Shown: piece after piece, positions 45,777 to 52,860 of the stretch
How positions within the stretch are numbered: position 1 is the stretch's first letter
Layout of the letters: the number at the start of each line of letters is the position of its first letter
Made by a program: the position numbers and the translations under genes
Notes under the pieces: model-generated
The model's input: the letters and a program-made list of their open reading frames with translations, nothing else
Told to the model about the DNA's origin: nothing
Database searches by the model: none
From: Phytohabitans maris
GTDB taxonomy: Bacteria; Actinomycetota; Actinomycetes; Mycobacteriales; Micromonosporaceae
Length of the DNA: 64,000 nucleotides
Reading direction: 5' to 3'
Assembly: GCF_031085175.1 (NCBI RefSeq)
Contig: NZ_JAVHUY010000020.1
Span: 1-64,000 of the forward strand

Positions 45777-46589
45777 TTACGGGCGGGGGGCCTGCAGCAG
45801 GCGGAAGAGGAGCAGCCACTGCTCCGGCCACACGTGACCGACCACAGTGGATGCCTCCAGCCGCGCCGCCCGGAAGGCCCCGTCCACCCGGCGAGCTGGG
45901 TACCGCCGGCGCAGTGAGGCGTGCAGCGAGCCGCCCACGCCGCCGAAGCCGAGGTCCACAAAGGACTGGTAGGCGGCCATCCGCCCGGCGGGCACGAGCG
46001 GCACCGGTCGCCGTTCCAGCCGCAGGATGCCGGAGTCGACGCGGGGCACCGGCCGGAAGGCCCGCCGCGGGATGCGCCCGGACAGTCCCCAGTGGAACTC
46101 CGGCCACGTCGACACGGTCAGCCGGCTCCACCGTCCATAGTCGCCGGTGCGCTTGCGCGCGTACTCCAGCTGGGTCACCAGCGTCGCCGCGGTGAGCGCA
46201 GGCGCCCGCAGGCACCACTGCACGATGGGTGCGGTGAGCGCGTACGGGATGTTGCCCACCACCGCGAACGGCTCGCGGGGCGCCCGGGCGGTCAGGAAGT
46301 CCTGGTGCCGTACGGCCACGTTCTCCGGTACCGCCAGGGTGGTGGCGAGAGCGGGGTCGACCTCGTACGCCACGACCCGCCCGGCCACCTTGGCCAGCCG
46401 CCGGGTGAGCCGCCCGTCGCCGGCGCCCACCTCCAGTACCAGGTCGCCGCGGCCCGGATCGGCGGCCCGTACCACGCGGTCCAGCTCGTCCGGGTCGTGC
46501 AGGAACGTCTGCGACAGCACGCGGCGGCTGCGGTCGCGCTCGTTGTGGATTCGTTGGGTATTGCGGCTTGATCGGGTGTTGTGCGCCAC
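45777..46589 (-). CDS. erm: 23S rRNA (adenine-N6) methyltransferase, Erm family
   Basis: A 270-residue enzyme that methylates A2058 of 23S rRNA and blocks macrolide, lincosamide and streptogramin B binding. The N-terminal basic arm (HNTRSSRNTQRIHNERDR) leads to LSQTFLHD, the SAM site LEVGAGDGRL (53-61), VAYEVDP and the catalytic NIPY (113-116). The C-terminal domain includes RRAFRPVPRVDSG, as in actinobacterial Erm proteins. GTG 46589 is chosen because GGGAGAGG precedes it and because the longer frame crosses the stem-loops of the leader. A leader peptide and two hairpins upstream suggest drug-inducible attenuation. Confidence 0.95.
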   Translation of the reverse strand: MAHNTRSSRNTQRIHNERDRSRRVLSQTFLHDPDELDRVVRAADPGRGDLVLEVGAGDGRLTRRLAKVAGRVVAYEVDPALATTLAVPENVAVRHQDFLTARAPREPFAVVGNIPYALTAPIVQWCLRAPALTAATLVTQLEYARKRTGDYGRWSRLTVSTWPEFHWGLSGRIPRRAFRPVPRVDSGILRLERRPVPLVPAGRMAAYQSFVDLGFGGVGGSLHASLRRRYPARRVDGAFRAARLEASTVVGHVWPEQWLLLFRLLQAPRP

Positions 46590-46740
46590 TGCCGGCGTCC
46601 TCTCCCACCGGCCCACGAGCGGGCCGGCATACGCGGACAGGCCGGCGCGAAGGCTTGAGCGCGCGCGAAAGCGAGGCCTGTCCGAGACGATTCGGGGACT
46701 CGGAGGGCCCTGGAAGAGAACGCGGAGTGGGTGTGCGGCG
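46590..46740 (-). promoter_or_regulatory. Attenuator-like stem-loops in the erm leader
   Basis: Between the leader peptide and erm, GACAGGCC (46636-46643) pairs with GGCCTGTC (46675-46682), extended by adjacent GC pairs. Nearer the gene, CCGGCCC (46608-46614) pairs with GGGCCGG (46621-46627), directly upstream of the GGGAGAGG ribosome site. Such structures can hide a ribosome site or stop transcription until a ribosome stalls in the leader. The exact switching fold is inferred, not shown. Confidence 0.6.
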
Positions 46741-46839
46741 TCAGCCCAGGGCCGGACGCACCGGCCGGGGCCTGACAACCGAGGTGAGACCCCACGCACC
46801 CGTCCGGGCGGGGGTCATGTTGGTCAGGGCGTGTGCCAT
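46741..46839 (-). CDS. Putative erm leader peptide (32 aa)
   Basis: A short open frame on the erm strand, from ATG 46839 to TGA 46741; an inner ATG at 46818 would give 25 residues. The product begins MAHALTNMTPARTG and ends in VVRPRPVRPALG. Macrolide-responsive leader peptides often contain an Arg/Lys-X-Arg/Lys motif at which drug-bound ribosomes stall; RPR (residues 23-25) fits this. It ends about 150 bases before erm. Translation is not proven, but position, length and motif all agree. Confidence 0.6.
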   Translation of the reverse strand: MAHALTNMTPARTGAWGLTSVVRPRPVRPALG

Positions 46840-46917: not shown

Positions 46918-49431
46918 TCACCAACCGGCGCCGAAGCAGACCAGCGGCGCCAGGTCCTCCTCGGCCTTCGCCGCGCTCTCGATGGCGGCCGCCAGCGCGG
47001 CGGCCGGTGACTGCCCGTCTCGCAGCGCCGCGTGGTGGGCCGGACCGACCTGGTAAGCGACCGCGTCGGCGATCCGCGCGACGCCGGCCACGACACTCCC
47101 CGCGCCGCCGTGCAGCAGCGCGGCGGTCATCCCCAGCGTCTCCTCGCCCGGTCGCGGCCGGGCGAGGCCCAGCTCGCACGCCGACAGCACGATGTGCGCC
47201 GGCAGCCGCGGCAGCTGGTGCAGCTCGTGGCCGAAGAGCGGCCCGTCCGCCAGCTCCAGGTGTGAGAAGAGCGGGTTGTCCGGCTCGTGCACGCCGTGCG
47301 CGGCCACGTGCAGTACGTCGGCGGAGCGCACCGCGTCCCGTACCCCGGCGGTGGTGGACTCCGTCGGCGACCGCGCCGACCACACCTCCGCGACCAGCCG
47401 CACCTCCTCCGCGGCCCGGGCCACCCGCGGCCCCGCGGCCAGCGCCAGCGTGGGCCGCGACGGCAGCACGGCCCGGTCACGGGCGGCCAGCCACGCGGTC
47501 GCGGACGGCACGACCGCCAGCGGGCGCCCGCGCAGCGCCGGCAGGAGCGTCCACGGTACGGCCACGAGCCCGGCCGCCGGCGCCAGCAGCAGCGGGCCCT
47601 CGGCGAGGTGCCGGCGCAGCGGGTGCCACAGCAGCTCGTCGAGGCGGTGCAGGGAGCGGCGGCTGGCCGCGCGCACGCTGACCCGCATCGGCTCGGGCAG
47701 GTTGAGCGTGGCGAGCGCGTCGAGGTCGGCACGGACCCGGTGCAGCAGCTCGACGGCGGGCGCCGCCGGGCCGAGGTCGATCAACGCGCGGCGGCGCGGC
47801 CCGGCCACGAGCGCGTGCAGCCGGCCGCCGGAGAGCAGGTGCGCCACGTACGTCGCGTCGGCCACGCCCAGCCTGTCCTGCACGTCGCCGAGCGGGGCGG
47901 GCGCGAGTGTCTGCCCCGGCCCCGGCGTGTACCAGGAGCGCTGCCGGATCAGCCGCTCGAGCTGGGCGCAGCGGGCGCGCAGACCGGGTGCGGGCTGGCC
48001 GGCGAGCACGGCGCCGCGCAGCTCGACGCGGAGGTGACGCAGCTCCTCCAGCATCGAGGCGGCCTCCGGATCGGCCGGCGGCACCACCGGCGGCAGCCGG
48101 GTGGAGAGCGCCCGGGCCCGCTCGGCCCAGCCGAAGACGGTCGCCGGCCGGCCGGAGGCCAGCGCGCGGGCGAGCCCCTGCTCGGCGAGGTGACGGCCGT
48201 GGCCGCTCACCGCGGTCTGCAGGTCGAGGCTGCCGAACGAGGCCTGGTAGCGGTGCAGGTCGGCCAGCGCCGCCCGCAGCTCGGCGTCGGCCCGCCCCGG
48301 CTCCCCTTCGGCGTCAGCGAGCCCGGCGCGCACCGAGCGGGCGGCCAGCCGGGTGGCGATCGGGTCGTCGCGGCGCAGCCGGATCGCACCGCCGGCCGCC
48401 GCCCGGATCCCCTCGACGCTCCCTTGTGGACGGACGGCGAGCAGCGCCGCCACACCGGTCAGCGTGGCCCGGCGCGCGTCGTCGTCGAGGCCGGCCGCGG
48501 CGAGCCCGGTGGCGACCCGGGCGGCGTCTTCGGCCGCGCCCCGCACCCGCTGCCCCCGCCCGACCGCCGCCGCGACGGCCACGTGCTCGGCGAGCAGCGC
48601 CCAGGCGTCGGCGCCGCGGGCCACGAAACGGCGCCGGGCCCGCTCGGCCAGGCGCCGCGCGTCGGCGTAGCGCTCTTCGAGCAGGGCGACCTGGGCCCGG
48701 GCCAGCTCCGCCTCGGCCTGGTCCTGCGGCGCCTTGGCCCCGCGGAAGAGCTCGACGGCGTGCGCGAGGTCGTCGTCCGCCTCGCGCCACAGGCCGGCGG
48801 CGAGCAGCACCTGGGCGCGGTCGATGTGGCAGACCGCCGCGTACGTCGGGGACTCGCCGGCCAGCGTGGCCCACACCGCGTCCATCTCGCGCAGCGCCTG
48901 CGGCAACGCGCCGGACAGCAGCGACAGGTAGCCGAGGTTGTGTGACGCCTTGGCGGCCAGCATGCCCAGCTCGTGCCGGCCGGCGACCTCGACGCAGCGG
49001 CGAAAGTCGGCGCGGGCCGCGGCCAGCACGCCGCGCTGCATGTGCAGGATGCCGCGGTTGAGCAGGGGGCGGCAGATGTCTTCCGGCACCGACTCGTCGA
49101 GCAGGCCCACCGCCGCGTCGAGCGCCGCGAGCGCGTCACCCGACCGGCCGGCCCGCATGTAGAGCAGGCCGCGCTGCGCGGCGACCATGCCCCGTAGCCG
49201 CTGCGGCAGGTCGGGCACCTCGTCGGCCTCGGCGAGCAGGCGCAGCCCCGCGTCGAGGCTGCGCGCCTCGGCCTGGTGGTAGGCGAGGCTGATCAGGATC
49301 CGGGCGCGCAGCTCGGGGTCGGGGCCGCTGCCCAGCGCGGCCCGCAGCAGCCGCCGAGCCGCGGCGTGCCGTCCGTGCTCGGTCTCCCGAACGGACTGGG
49401 CGTGCAGCTCGGCGGCACTGGCGACGGACAC
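46918..49431 (-). CDS. CHAT-domain (caspase-like) protease with TPR repeats
   Basis: An 837-residue protein. Residues 1 to about 450 form at least eight helical TPR-like repeats (RLLRAALGSGPDPELRARI, AALDAAVGLLDESVPEDICR). The C-terminal CHAT domain (about 540-837) has the caspase/separase-type His-Cys pair: His712 in LHVAAHGVHEPDNPLFS and Cys752 in IVLSACELGL. CHAT proteases are activated through their TPR part in response to a signal and cut partner proteins. It is the last gene of a unit with a subtilase, a small protein and a sigma factor (gaps 80, 16 and overlap), which suggests a proteolytic cascade. Start GTG 49431. Confidence 0.9.
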   Translation of the reverse strand: MSVASAAELHAQSVRETEHGRHAAARRLLRAALGSGPDPELRARILISLAYHQAEARSLDAGLRLLAEADEVPDLPQRLRGMVAAQRGLLYMRAGRSGDALAALDAAVGLLDESVPEDICRPLLNRGILHMQRGVLAAARADFRRCVEVAGRHELGMLAAKASHNLGYLSLLSGALPQALREMDAVWATLAGESPTYAAVCHIDRAQVLLAAGLWREADDDLAHAVELFRGAKAPQDQAEAELARAQVALLEERYADARRLAERARRRFVARGADAWALLAEHVAVAAAVGRGQRVRGAAEDAARVATGLAAAGLDDDARRATLTGVAALLAVRPQGSVEGIRAAAGGAIRLRRDDPIATRLAARSVRAGLADAEGEPGRADAELRAALADLHRYQASFGSLDLQTAVSGHGRHLAEQGLARALASGRPATVFGWAERARALSTRLPPVVPPADPEAASMLEELRHLRVELRGAVLAGQPAPGLRARCAQLERLIRQRSWYTPGPGQTLAPAPLGDVQDRLGVADATYVAHLLSGGRLHALVAGPRRRALIDLGPAAPAVELLHRVRADLDALATLNLPEPMRVSVRAASRRSLHRLDELLWHPLRRHLAEGPLLLAPAAGLVAVPWTLLPALRGRPLAVVPSATAWLAARDRAVLPSRPTLALAAGPRVARAAEEVRLVAEVWSARSPTESTTAGVRDAVRSADVLHVAAHGVHEPDNPLFSHLELADGPLFGHELHQLPRLPAHIVLSACELGLARPRPGEETLGMTAALLHGGAGSVVAGVARIADAVAYQVGPAHHAALRDGQSPAAALAAAIESAAKAEEDLAPLVCFGAGW

Positions 49432-49511
49432 GCCCCATCATGGCACGGCGGCCCGCGACCCCGTCTCGACCGATACTCCAGCGGCGGCGCTCCGTTTGCC
49501 GCCGCCACCCG

Positions 49512-51026
49512 TTACGGCTGCGGCCGCAGCGCCTCGATCGCCCGCTGCATCCGCTTGACCGGGTCGCTCTCGGTCATCAGCAGCGAACCCACACCGTTGG
49601 ACGCGATCAGCGCCTTGGCGATCCGGCCGGCGAGGATCGGCGCCGCGAACGAGGTGCCGCTGGAGATCGCGAACCCGCCGCCGAAGTCGTCCGGGTCGAT
49701 GTTTTCCCGGCTCCGCCCGTGGAACGGGTCGGGGTACGCCGCGCCGGCGCCCATCGCGTGGTCGAACCTCGGCATCGTGCTCACCACAGCGGCACCCGGC
49801 TCCCAGTGGCGCACCCACGAGCCGGTGTTGCTGAAGAGCGCGATCGAGCCGTTGGGGTTGAGCGCGCCCACGCTGGAGACCGGTACGGCCGGCGCGTCGA
49901 CGCCCTGCGGCGGCTCGGCGTACGCCGCGGGGAACATCGGCCGCGCGGTGGCGTCGTTGCCGGCGGCGGCCACCACCGCGACGCCGAGCTCGGCGAGCTC
50001 GCGGACCTCCTCGTAGAGCAGCGACATGTACGCGTCGTCGTCCGGCGACTCGTGGTAGAAGCCCAGCGAGAGCGAGATCACGTCGATCGCCTGGCCGCCC
50101 GCCTCCCCCGCGGCGGCCTTGCGGGCCAGCTCGCGAAGCGTCTGGAGCGCCGCGAGCAGCTCGGACTCGACGATCACGCCGTCGGAGTGGATCACCCGTA
50201 CCGGGAGGATGTCGGCGTCCGGGCAGGCCTGCCGGACCAGGCCGCAGATGAACGTGCCGTGCCCGGCGAGCGGGTCGCGCATCCCGTCGAGCGGGCCGGT
50301 CACGTCGCCCGTCGTGTCCAGCGCGGTGCCGTCGTCGCCGACGAGCGCGCTGATCGGGTCGAGCAGCCCTTCGGCGAACCAGGGGTGGTCGCCGCAACCG
50401 GTGTCGAGCACGGCCACCACCGGCCGCCGCGGGGTCACCGTCGCCTGGCGCAGCGGGGTCGGCAGGACCAGGTTGACCGGCTGGGTGGCGCCGAAACCGA
50501 GCATCCCGTACTGCGCGATCGGCCCGCCGAACGCCGAGTGGAACGGGAAGGCGGAGTGGAACGGGAACGCCGAATGGAACGGGAACGCGGAGTGGAACGG
50601 GAAGGCCGAGTGGAACGGGCTCCCCGTGATCGGCGAGCTCGTCGCGAACATGAGGTGGTCGAGGCCGAGGCCCAGAGCGCGCGAACGGGCCGCGTCCTTC
50701 GACCGGGCCGCCTGCAGCACCCGCCACGCGTCGGGAGTGGCCGGGCCACCGTTGCCGGGTGAGACGCGCACGCAGCGGCCGCCCGCGGGCGGGTCGTCGA
50801 GCTGGAGCTGGAGCCCGGCACCGACCTCGTTGAAGAGGCGCCGGTGGTCACCTCCGCCCGGGCGCATCAGCAGCCGGTTGGCGACGTAGACAGTGGACTG
50901 GAGCCGCTGGTCGGGCAGCACCTGGGCCGAGACGGGATCGAGCGCTCGGGCGCCGTGTGCTGCCAGGAGACCGGCCGGCGGTGTCGGGACGTGCTTGTCT
51001 GCGGTGGCCACGATGAAACTCCCCAC
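49512..51026 (-). CDS. S8 subtilisin-like protease with PFHSAF tandem repeat
   Basis: A 504-residue subtilase. Triad: Asp208 (VAVLDTGCGDHPWF), His256 (AGHGTFICGL), Ser459 (SSGTSFAAPILAG); oxyanion Asn357 (AAAGNDAT). There is no signal peptide, so it is probably cytosolic, unlike the subtilase at 1897. The N-terminal 200 residues look like a prodomain; it holds five exact PFHSAF hexapeptides (137-166) directly before the catalytic domain, where autocleavage would occur. It follows a small unknown gene by 16 bp and precedes the CHAT gene by 80 bp. This layout suggests a zymogen that the CHAT protease could cut. Confidence 0.92.
   Translation of the reverse strand: MGSFIVATADKHVPTPPAGLLAAHGARALDPVSAQVLPDQRLQSTVYVANRLLMRPGGGDHRRLFNEVGAGLQLQLDDPPAGGRCVRVSPGNGGPATPDAWRVLQAARSKDAARSRALGLGLDHLMFATSSPITGSPFHSAFPFHSAFPFHSAFPFHSAFPFHSAFGGPIAQYGMLGFGATQPVNLVLPTPLRQATVTPRRPVVAVLDTGCGDHPWFAEGLLDPISALVGDDGTALDTTGDVTGPLDGMRDPLAGHGTFICGLVRQACPDADILPVRVIHSDGVIVESELLAALQTLRELARKAAAGEAGGQAIDVISLSLGFYHESPDDDAYMSLLYEEVRELAELGVAVVAAAGNDATARPMFPAAYAEPPQGVDAPAVPVSSVGALNPNGSIALFSNTGSWVRHWEPGAAVVSTMPRFDHAMGAGAAYPDPFHGRSRENIDPDDFGGGFAISSGTSFAAPILAGRIAKALIASNGVGSLLMTESDPVKRMQRAIEALRPQP
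50529..50618 (-). repeat. 18-bp tandem repeat, five units, within the subtilase gene
   Basis: Five in-frame 18-bp units encode PFHSAF five times. The units differ at third positions (for example GGGAAGGCGG against GGGAACGCCG), so the amino-acid sequence rather than the DNA appears to be kept. Confidence 0.95.
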
Positions 51027-51042
51027 GAAAAGAGGTCTGGGG

Positions 51043-51501
51043 CTAAAGCTGGACCGGCGGCGTCACCACCGGGCGGTGCAGGGGTACCGTCGCCCCGGAC
51101 GTCGGATGGATCATGATTTGCACCAGGCCGGACGGCACCTCCGCGAAGGCGAACCGCCCGTCGACGTCGGCCTGGGTCTCGTGCACACCTCGCGGGGTGC
51201 GCAGCTCGACCCGAAGGGCCCCGCCTGGTGCGATCCAACCGTCGATCCGGTGCCGCTGCGGTCCCGAATCCGACACGGTCACCATCACAGTGAGGCTTTC
51301 CGCCGAAAAGGTGACCGTCGACGCGGTCTCCGGGCCACGCGCGCCGACCGGCTGGAGGGTCTCCTGCAGCCGCATGAGCTCGAATTCCAAGTCTTCCAGC
51401 CCCAGCGTGAAGAGCACGCGGTCGGCGAGGTCAGCCGGCGGCGGGTCCAACGTGTCGTACATATCGTGGACCGCACGCAACAGCGTCAGGTCGTCAGTCA
51501 C
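51043..51501 (-). CDS. Unknown protein between sigma factor and subtilase genes
   Basis: A 152-residue protein. GTG 51501 overlaps the sigma stop by 8 bp (GTG 51510 is an alternative start). The N-terminal half is helical and acidic (LRAVHDMYDTLDPPPADLAD, LEFELMRLQETLQ). The C-terminal half is beta-rich (RHRIDGWIAPGGALRVELRT, then GRFAFAEVPSGLVQIMIHP), resembling the Ig-like regulatory domain of carboxypeptidase D. Its place directly after a sigma gene and its short size suggest a sigma-binding or scaffold role. No signal peptide or transmembrane helix. Function unknown. Confidence 0.8.
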   Translation of the reverse strand: MTDDLTLLRAVHDMYDTLDPPPADLADRVLFTLGLEDLEFELMRLQETLQPVGARGPETASTVTFSAESLTVMVTVSDSGPQRHRIDGWIAPGGALRVELRTPRGVHETQADVDGRFAFAEVPSGLVQIMIHPTSGATVPLHRPVVTPPVQL

Positions 51502-52102
51502 GCCGGTCACTCCACTCCGGATCGGCGGCCAGCAGGCCGCGTAGCTTTTCGAGGCAGCGCCCGCGGGTCGGCCCGATGCTGCCCACCGCGATCCCCAACT
51601 CGGTGGAGAGGGAGGCGTAGTCCGGCCGGTCTTCGAACGCGATCACGCGCAGCAGCCGCTGGCAACGCTCGGACAACTCCGCGATGTGGCGCCACAGTGT
51701 CCGCGCGGTGCGCTCGGCGAGCACGGTGCCGTCCGGCCCACCGACCGGGGGCAGGGCGGCGTCGAGCGTCTGCGGCTCGGCCACGTCTACCCGCTTGCCG
51801 GCCCGGGCCGTGCGCCACGCCTCGCGGCGCGCGGTGGTGGTCGTCCACCGGAGCACCGCCTGCGGGTCACGCACCGAGTCCACATTGCGCACCAACGCGA
51901 GCCAGGTCGTCTGCACCACGTCTTCGGCCGACTCGCGATCGAGCCCATATGCCCGGACAAGATGCCACAACACCGGCGTCAACAGCCGAACCAGGCGGTC
52001 GAGTGCCGCCCGGTCACCGGCCCGCCACGCGGCGAACTCCCGCGCGGCCACTTCCCAGGAGGCCGCTCCGACCCCGGTGTCGTCAGAGGTCGCCGACGTC
52101 AT
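51494..52102 (-). CDS. ECF-like RNA polymerase sigma factor
   Basis: A 202-residue sigma-70 family protein. ATG 52102 has a GGGAGGGGGG site. Region 2 (about residues 28-95): LVRLLTPVLWHLVRAYGLDR, ESAEDVVQTTWLALVRN, RWTTTTARREAWRTAR. Region 4 (about 135-190): LSERCQRLLRVIAFEDRPDY, LSTELGIAVGSIGPTRGRCL. It is the first gene of the protease unit. Sigma factors of this type with CHAT and S8 genes behind them recur in actinobacteria as far as I recall. It probably drives its own operon. No anti-sigma with a transmembrane helix is present. Confidence 0.9.
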   Translation of the reverse strand: MTSATSDDTGVGAASWEVAAREFAAWRAGDRAALDRLVRLLTPVLWHLVRAYGLDRESAEDVVQTTWLALVRNVDSVRDPQAVLRWTTTTARREAWRTARAGKRVDVAEPQTLDAALPPVGGPDGTVLAERTARTLWRHIAELSERCQRLLRVIAFEDRPDYASLSTELGIAVGSIGPTRGRCLEKLRGLLAADPEWSDRRD

Positions 52103-52464
52103 CGCACCCCCCTCCCATCCGATCCCCGCCGCCAAGGCCGGGCCTGACCTGCACACTCACACACTGCGCCATCGTAGGTGCGTTTCGATATCACCGAAGC
52201 GACAGTGCGTCGCGCACAAGGGAGGAGGTGATCAAAGTCGCGCTGATACGTACCCACGAAAGAATTTTTCGGCGTATCACGGGCGCCGCTCGGTGCTCCT
52301 GTATCCGGACTTCACAGAGCCGTGCCGGCGCATGGGGGTGCGCCGCGCGGCCCGCTCCCCCTCTGGGGCTGGGGGGAGGGACGGCGGGGGTGCTTCCCGG
52401 GGGGATGCACCCCCGCTGCGTTCCTCTCCGGGCCCGGGCGCGGCGCCACGGCCGCGTCAGGCGG
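52103..52464. other. Intergenic region without a supportable gene
   Basis: A 362-bp gap that should contain the promoter of the sigma-subtilase-CHAT unit (transcribed leftwards). It includes an AT-richer stretch around 52225-52285 and an AGGAGG-GTG combination at 52222 that does not lead to a protein-like frame. The right end holds a terminator. Confidence 0.5.
52384..52416 (-). terminator. Hairpin terminator after the STAS gene
   Basis: GCGGGGGTGC (52384-52393) and GCACCCCCGC (52407-52416) form a perfect 10-bp stem with a 13-nt loop, about 50 bases past the STAS stop. Confidence 0.7.
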
Positions 52465-52860
52465 TCACAGCTCGGCGAGCGAACGGCGGATCGGCACCGG
52501 CTCCGGCCAGGGGCGGGTGACGTCCTCGGCGACCGAGGAGCCGACGATCGGGATCACCCGGTTGACCCGGGTGGCGCGGAGCGTGCGGCGGACCACCGCG
52601 TTCGGATTGCAGATGACCAGCTGCCCGCCCCGGGCGCGGGTGCGCAGATGCACCGCGACCAGCGCCCGGACCCCCGCGGCGGACAGAAAGCCGACTTCCC
52701 CCAGATCGACCCGCAGCGGCGCCGGCGTGGCCGGCAAGGCCCACAGCACCGCCCGGAACTCGTCCACGTTCGCGATGTCGATCTCACCGGCGACGCGTAC
52801 GTCGATCCCCCTCGCGCCGACGGTGACCTCGGCTTTCAACTGGTGTTGCGGTTCCCCCAT
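52465..52860 (-). CDS. STAS-domain anti-sigma factor antagonist
   Basis: A 131-residue protein of the SpoIIAA/RsbV type. The STAS fold is covered by VRVAGEIDIANVDEFRAVLW, VDLGEVGFLSAAGVRALVAV and VRRTLRATRVNRV. The usual phosphorylated Ser in a DSSG turn appears as FLSAAG, with Ser at about residue 59 still available. A partner kinase (RsbW type) and a sigma-B-like factor are not nearby, so it works with a distant partner. The C-terminal 20 residues form an extension. Confidence 0.9.
   Translation of the reverse strand: MGEPQHQLKAEVTVGARGIDVRVAGEIDIANVDEFRAVLWALPATPAPLRVDLGEVGFLSAAGVRALVAVHLRTRARGGQLVICNPNAVVRRTLRATRVNRVIPIVGSSVAEDVTRPWPEPVPIRRSLAEL

Follow-up and report, generated by a model that had tools for sequence, protein, structure and literature searches.

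A recurrent four-gene set of Phytohabitans maris and other actinobacteria as a possible protease-controlled sigma factor module

A stretch of 64,000 nucleotides of the Phytohabitans maris genome (GCF_031085175.1, contig NZ_JAVHUY010000020.1, positions 1 to 64,000; hereafter the window) carries four closely spaced minus-strand genes. They encode a sigma factor of the extracytoplasmic function (ECF) type (SIG), a small protein with a predicted beta-sandwich (SMALL), a cytosolic pro-subtilase (S8) and a protease with tetratricopeptide repeats (TPR) and a CHAT domain (CHAT). The set recurs in other genomes. It is proposed here, as a plausible rather than a probable reading, that the set constitutes a single chromosomal signalling module in which CHAT cuts SMALL and frees an autoregulated SIG, with S8 as a self-locked second protease.

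The module would operate as follows. First, SIG would drive transcription of its own operon and of a small number of further genes from promoters of the type GTATCA-N16/17-CTCCT, and the N-terminal helical part of SMALL (the region of DPVP and FALxLEDLDxE) would hold SIG inactive. Second, a signal would be received by the TPR part of CHAT, which would then cut SMALL after a near-invariant Arg in the linker between the helices and the beta-sandwich. Third, the cut SMALL would release SIG, by which the own operon would be boosted and a small regulon switched on. The prodomain of S8, together with a disordered linker whose tandem Pro-hydrophobic hexapeptides suit the enzyme's own active site, would keep S8 inactive. 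Activated by CHAT or through self-processing, S8 may clear SMALL fragments or act on another target. The binding of SIG by SMALL, the two cleavage steps, their sequence and the signal are inferred. SMALL is the probable sigma partner and protease substrate, and a cascade from CHAT to S8 is possible.

The domain assignments were obtained from profile searches. SIG matched Sigma70_r2 of Pfam (6.2e-10) and sigma70-ECF of NCBIfam (6.1e-14); the ECF superfamily model TIGR02937 was above its cut-off, and there was no ECF54 profile among the matches. S8 matched Peptidase_S8 (Pfam; 7.5e-20) and CHAT the Pfam CHAT domain (2e-23), with TPR models of Pfam reaching E 1e-4, still under their curated cut-offs. 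No Pfam or NCBIfam match above a cut-off was obtained for SMALL. The genes had been delineated before in a preliminary description of the window, and with the starts used there, the stated overlap of 8 bp and gaps of 16 and 80 bp are exact. An alternative S8 start, GTG at 51011, has a better-looking ribosome site (by eye) and would yield 499 amino acids and a gap of 31 bp.

The prodomain of S8, its repeat and the His712/Cys752 dyad of CHAT, all noted in that description, were confirmed. In the predicted S8 model, a compact N-terminal domain (residues 18-127, high confidence) is followed by a disordered segment (132-185) and the subtilase core. The top structural matches were pro-subtilisin structures, with E of about 2e-11 and a template modelling score by query of about 0.4. 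The triad Asp208/His256/Ser459 was invariant in 49 of 49 aligned sequences, and S8 combines, in its predicted fold, the prodomain and the catalytic domain with triad of pro-subtilisins. The repeat consists of five hexapeptide copies. The CHAT dyad was present in the aligned relatives, except for rows that were truncated or not in frame at these places (both motifs in L033, the Cys motif in L039).

All four genes were present in 66 of the 79 wide loci with a hit. Since these loci were selected by SMALL, S8 or CHAT hits and not at random, the number describes the company that these genes keep and not their overall frequency. Within the family, 86 of 200 genomes, from 24 of its 44 genera, contained SMALL relatives (E 0.001). 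For S8 relatives (E 1e-40), the count was 53 of 397 genomes at the level of the order and 8 of 396 at that of the phylum (own genome counted in each case). The sequences are related, and counts over them are not independent events. The order S8-SIG-SMALL-CHAT was observed in 31 of the 79 loci, the window type SIG-SMALL-S8-CHAT in 21, and a CHAT gene divergent from S8-SIG-SMALL in 8. SMALL was located directly 3' of SIG in every gene order that includes SIG. The two genes overlapped in 22 of 36 measured pairs and were separated by 1 to 113 nt in the remaining ones (gene starts in the loci of relatives are heuristic). Other arrangements were S8-CHAT alone (six loci, one of them, L120, on a short contig), S8-SMALL-CHAT without SIG (L062-L064), loci in which no CHAT was found (L069 and, on a short contig, L119), a reversed S8 (L065, L074), tandem sets (L143, L144) and CHAT alone (L148). 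The window's own genome holds a second, distant SIG-SMALL / CHAT / S8 set on contig C35 (L147; C35:8000-26000). In P. flavus (L031) and P. suffuscus (L033), the proteins of the set are 85-95% identical to those of the window; in the latter, a frame change interrupts both the S8 and the CHAT gene, reflecting either sequencing error or decay.

Thus, the neighbourhood search suggested in the preliminary description revealed a recurrent set and not a local one. The grouping is real; its implied novelty is reduced, since the gene context is already in print for ECF54 sigma factors. According to the accessible text of PMC8999054, genes for carboxypeptidase, subtilase and CHAT domains are conserved in their neighbourhood, and these sigma factors were proposed to be controlled by proteolysis and not by an anti-sigma factor. 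New with respect to that text are the S8 array, the linker Arg of SMALL and the promoter motif.

SMALL was predicted with a mean pLDDT (predicted local distance difference test) of 90, with helices at residues 2-19 and 26-36 and a seven-strand beta-sandwich at 62-133. The ten-residue block 51-60 between them had the lowest model confidence of the protein (67) and holds the linker Arg, which was kept in 72 of 74 SMALL relatives, with an entropy of 0.21 bits as compared to 1.5-3.4 bits at the eight positions on either side. This Arg is the proposed CHAT cut site. A putative role of SMALL as sigma brake or substrate, two of the options named in the preliminary description, fits the predicted fold and the near-invariant Arg. 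In the loci without SIG (L062-L064), the helical region of SMALL is shortened and the Arg retained; this shortening is only suggestive, since SMALL copies without an adjacent SIG in L143 and L144 keep normal helices. A structure search matched no solved fold at E 0.001. A known anti-sigma family was rejected for SMALL, as no anti-sigma, zinc-finger or IPI match was found in the libraries, with 50 of 585 fold matches listed.

Alternatively, SMALL may primarily be an inhibitor or adaptor of S8 and not an anti-sigma factor, with SIG as a transcriptional amplifier only. A precedent is IPI of Bacillus, an Ig-fold intracellular inhibitor of Isp1 described in the accessible text of PMC3901451: SMALL, too, is a small protein with a beta-sandwich and is encoded next to a cytosolic subtilase on which it could act, and it persists without an adjacent SIG in L062-L064, L143 and L144. 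IPI and SMALL differ in that SMALL has an N-terminal helical module and adjoins the sigma gene. No sequence match to IPI was obtained, and IPI was not recognised among the 50 of 585 fold matches listed. Moreover, SMALL keeps its place behind SIG while S8 shifts its position, and S8-CHAT pairs occur without SMALL nearby. Taken together, this alternative is possible but unlikely.

A further alternative concerns the neighbouring peptidases, which might keep the sigma factor off by degrading it, without any anti-sigma factor. CarboxypepD_reg is a non-catalytic beta-sandwich domain. It was matched by 17 of 48 SMALL members at E 0.01 (best 1.3e-5), while the window protein had no match above the cut-off, and the 'carboxypeptidase' of the ECF54 literature is therefore probably SMALL and not a peptidase. 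The degradation proposal was drawn, as far as the accessible text goes, from the carboxypeptidase, subtilase and CHAT context (PMC8999054). Together with the extra helical module and the conserved linker Arg of SMALL, the non-catalytic nature of that domain makes sigma degradation quite unlikely.

The link of the set to transcription was analyzed via a promoter-like motif. GTATCAG was conserved upstream of SIG in an alignment of the genus, and a bipartite scan and a pattern search tied it to CTCCT 16-17 nt further on. Since the motif sits at the sigma operon, we infer that it is the promoter read by SIG. In the own genome, GTATCA-N16/17-CTCCT occurred three times, two of the matches being the divergent pair at the cluster, and the reversed control pattern occurred once. 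The 37 genomes with S8 or SMALL contained 87 matches, as compared to 29 for the reversed control in the same genomes. Of the 87 matches, 31 (in 19 genomes) were located within 5.5 kb of the cluster, where 0.18 were expected. In 37 other genomes, 26 motif and 30 control matches were counted; these comprised 23 of the family without a SMALL hit (E 0.001) and 14 others without an S8 hit (E 1e-40), in which SMALL was not sought; distant types may be present among all 37. The motif was found in loci that also feed the near-cluster count; the comparison with the other genomes and the test of distal sites are the independent parts.

For the distal test, 55 of the 56 distal matches were examined (all except G328:C363:194) and 52 of these were tested. 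Excluded were L161/L217, the third site of the own genome, and L189/L190, the pair upstream of SIG in G328; L180, a near-cluster site, was also outside the test. Of the 52 sites, 23 were followed at 30-110 nt by a gene start that had a word resembling a ribosome site, as compared to 466 of 6000 random positions (7.8%; binomial p 1e-12). The reversed-pattern control gave no sites within this test and was uninformative. Given the background of 29 reversed matches in the same genomes, chance may account for as many as half of the 56 distal matches. Ten genes behind distal sites were scanned: four were above a family cut-off (DUF4232; Hsp70; Gmad2 with LysM; a large VRP1-hemopexin protein), one showed a lectin match below the cut-off, and five had no match. 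The VRP1-hemopexin type gene, which resembles A-type Tc proteins, follows the motif after 40-68 nt in three genomes of the genus (L164, L211, L212); its relatives were assigned by pairwise match and by Pfam for L164, and the frame is broken in L211 and perhaps in L212.

Several individual motif sites were also observed. The third site of the own genome (L161:3697-3724; C13:160196-160223) is kept in four genomes of the genus (also L162, L163 and L165) and is followed by a hairpin-like sequence and a T-rich stretch, which may represent a very short RNA gene. The divergent copy at the cluster is also present in loci of the genus and of several other families, with no clear gene ahead of it; it may drive a short RNA towards an inverted repeat at 52384-52416. 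At L206:2283-2552 (minus strand), the motif precedes a small LuxR-type regulator (by eye), which itself contains a short tandem VHQTPV repeat. In the genomes of loci with S8-CHAT only (G397, G213, G341), no motif match was found; SIG was not sought genome-wide in these, and G397 has a second S8.

The array of S8 lies in the linker between the prodomain and the catalytic domain. Perfect arrays were detected in 38 of 85 distinct S8 linkers and in about 0.4% of trials with shuffled linkers. Of the 38 arrays, 35 had a period of 6; the copy number was 2-8, and there were 29 unit types, e.g., PYYSAH, PIWEPH, PFDSPH, PFGSGV and PMTEGS. In 24 of the 29 unit types (32 arrays), the residue next to Pro on its C-terminal side is F, Y, M, L, I or V. 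Adjacent copies differed by 313 synonymous and 34 non-synonymous changes (proportions pS 0.57 and pN 0.02); pN is biased low, since the arrays were detected by amino-acid identity. Most of the 34 changes stem from flanking units, which were counted in from an identity of 50% upwards. The copies of the window array differ by 9 synonymous and no non-synonymous changes. Thus, the amino-acid identity within a protein seems to be held by selection, with the unit changing between species. A copy of the array in another protein of the genome was rejected, as the PFHSAF codon pattern was found nowhere else in the 9.87-Mb assembly (about 97% complete).

One could regard the array as a mere flexible spacer that arose by replication slippage and has no sequence function. 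Close relatives indeed differ in copy number (4-5 in the loci of the genus that were read), the unit differs between species, and the region is predicted to be disordered. However, nearly identical amino acids encoded by copies that diverged at silent sites, and the rarity of arrays in shuffled linkers, render this explanation distinctly improbable. As to which protease the array serves, clan-CD proteases usually cut at Asp-, Glu-, Lys- or Arg-type sites. Sixteen of the 29 unit types lack all four residues, so that the usual clan-CD site is not a common property of the arrays, and cleavage of the array by CHAT was rejected. The repeats share no residue typical of clan-CD cut sites and appear better suited to the subtilase itself than to CHAT. 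Their Pro-hydrophobic pair is similar to ligands of subtilisins, namely the Ala-Pro-Phe inhibitor of the complex 1bh6, which was among the structural matches of S8 (by title), and the LIPY/F lock of intracellular subtilisins (PMC6220982). The array may be directed at the active site of S8 itself, either as a lock or as self-cut sites. The conserved RRPV ahead of the S8 core was also considered as a CHAT site and discarded, because this sequence seems to be part of the first core strand.

Several observations weigh against the proposed module. Regarding the motif, the count in the first scan (8 of 62 loci) was no higher than in shuffles (maxima 7-11), and a looser pattern gave 7 matches in the own genome as compared to 8 for the reversed control. 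The link to gene expression made in the preliminary description is supported by the promoter-like motif at the cluster, although 18 of the 37 cluster-bearing genomes have no match near it (G328 is counted among these because its SIG sits on another contig, with a motif pair). Seven of the 37 have no match at all, including G299 and G419, which possess SIG. No perfect array was found in 47 of the 85 S8 linkers, mostly of more distant types or with looser repeats of 11-12 residues (by eye). The linker Arg was replaced by Lys in one and by Ser in another of the 74 SMALLs, and its conservation can be structural. The SMALL copies of L143 and L144 with a normal helical region lack a directly adjacent SIG (in L143, one SIG lies further along). 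Finally, five S8-CHAT pairs on long stretches (L127, L128, L132, L135, L149) showed no SIG or SMALL nearby. In view of these pairs and of the SMALLs without adjacent SIG, SMALL and S8-CHAT may not act through SIG only. The pairs hint at an additional function of the two proteases by themselves and thus speak against a role in transcription alone.

CHAT and subtilase domains occur in suicide and antiphage conflict systems. On this background, S8 and CHAT might kill the cell, with the sigma factor only priming their expression. A caspase-domain gene (Peptidase_C14) was indeed located directly 3' of CHAT in two loci without SIG (L062, 343-1173; L063, 2605-3495). PADLOC, however, gave no match for CHAT, SMALL and SIG and only weak IetS and subtilase matches for S8, and filing of the set as a defence system was therefore rejected. 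Furthermore, among the neighbour clusters listed (at most 40 clusters of at least 3 loci), no fifth gene was common across groups, the adjoining genes were mostly limited to one genus or group, and the flanks resembled ordinary chromosomal genes. The only record of a plasmid collection that matched S8 (E 1e-20) has a length of 11.85 Mb, and mobile spread was rejected on this basis. NucA-trypsin conflict systems with S8 domains have been described (PMC7159879); these multi-protease systems were set aside, as the words CHAT and sigma are absent from the main text of that paper. A conflict system is thus hardly likely.

In RRNPP-like peptide signalling, a TPR receptor binds a short excised peptide; in the set described here, an array and a TPR-bearing CHAT co-occur. 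It is very improbable that S8 excises identical hexapeptides from itself, with a cut behind every Pro-hydrophobic pair, and that these are read by the TPR part of CHAT as a species-specific intracellular peptide signal; if true, a peptide code would couple subtilase, caspase-like protease and sigma factor.

The features of the set are compiled in Table 1. With respect to the neighbouring genes, an rRNA adenine dimethylase family gene (45777-46799, minus strand) lies just 3' of CHAT, with a relative at this place in six genus-level loci including the window, and the operon of the window and of near relatives is closely preceded by a STAS-domain gene (52465-52860, minus strand). No gasdermin was found in the Pfam matches of the six window genes scanned; neighbours in relatives were not scanned in full.

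Table 1. Coordinates of the four genes and of the sites discussed, in positions of the window.
Feature	Position	Strand	Remarks
CHAT, TPR-CHAT protease, 837 aa	46918-49431	-	Open reading frame (ORF) list, Pfam, NCBIfam
S8, cytosolic pro-subtilase, 504 aa	49512-51026	-	ORF list, Pfam, predicted fold
SMALL, 152 aa from GTG at 51501 (155 aa from GTG at 51510)	51043-51501 (ORF 51043-51510)	-	
SIG, ECF-like sigma factor, 202 aa from ATG at 52102	51494-52102	-	220-aa ORF extends to 52156
CHAT Cys752 codon	47176-47178	-	Alignment of relatives
CHAT His712 codon	47296-47298	-	Alignment of relatives
S8 Ser459 codon	49650-49652	-	Invariant in relatives
S8 His256 codon	50259-50261	-	Invariant in relatives
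S8 Asp208 codon	50403-50405	-	Invariant in relatives
Tandem PFHSAF x5, S8 residues 137-166	50529-50618	-	Predicted disordered linker, prodomain to catalytic domain
Arg codon in SMALL inter-domain linker (GARG)	51337-51339	-	Residue 56 of modelled 153-aa stretch
Promoter-like motif GTATCA-N16-CTCCT of operon	52223-52249	-	121 nt upstream of SIG ATG
Divergent copy of GTATCA/CTCCT motif	52274-52300	+	Reads away from operon

The candidate cut site in SMALL and the candidate promoter with its countable regulon provide direct handles on the proposed module. The S8 array represents a repeat under an unusual selection regime, with near-identical protein copies, diverged silent sites and units differing between species, and it poses the question of what binds a hexapeptide that is fixed within a protein yet variable between species.

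A comparison with known systems places the set between several of them. Among the open-licence papers searched, PMC8999054 was the only relevant one on ECF54, and for S8 repeats and for CHAT with subtilase, sigma factor or caspase, nothing closer than PMC8999054 and PMC10028731 was found. The ECF54 context resembles the window set with an ECF sigma factor beside a subtilase, a CHAT protein and a 'carboxypeptidase' domain, the last part resting on the weak CarboxypepD_reg matches in relatives. The present account differs from that of the review in that SMALL is taken to be a sigma partner which is non-catalytic and carries a cut site, and in that the S8 array and the promoter motif are added. 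Intracellular subtilisins with a LIPY/F lock segment (PMC6220982, accessible text) are, like S8, cytosolic and contain a segment with Pro and an aromatic residue that may contact the active site. In contrast to these, S8 has a long pro-subtilisin-type prodomain and a tandem hexapeptide array, and not the short pro-peptide with [LVI]-[IFLV]-P-[YFH]: Pro is mostly preceded by small or polar residues, and the window unit, read as A-F-P-F, fails at the first position.

The proposed mechanism is closest in its logic to that of Csx29, a TPR-CHAT protease that cuts Csx30, an inhibitor of an ECF sigma factor (CASP-sigma), as described in the accessible text of PMC10028731. Both systems comprise a TPR-CHAT protease, an ECF sigma factor and a third protein able to hold the sigma factor until cut. 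The window CHAT has the His/Cys dyad together with the sub-threshold TPR matches, and it gave a weak local match to the Csx29 model (24.8 bits; cut-off 300). The third protein of the window is of about 155 amino acids and of another architecture, and a subtilase is part of the set. No Cas7-11 or other CRISPR effector and no CRISPR array were seen beside the recurrent set in the neighbour clusters listed; no dedicated CRISPR scan was run. If the proposed mechanism is true, the logic of one CRISPR system, in which a protease frees a sigma factor, would be widespread in actinobacteria without CRISPR.

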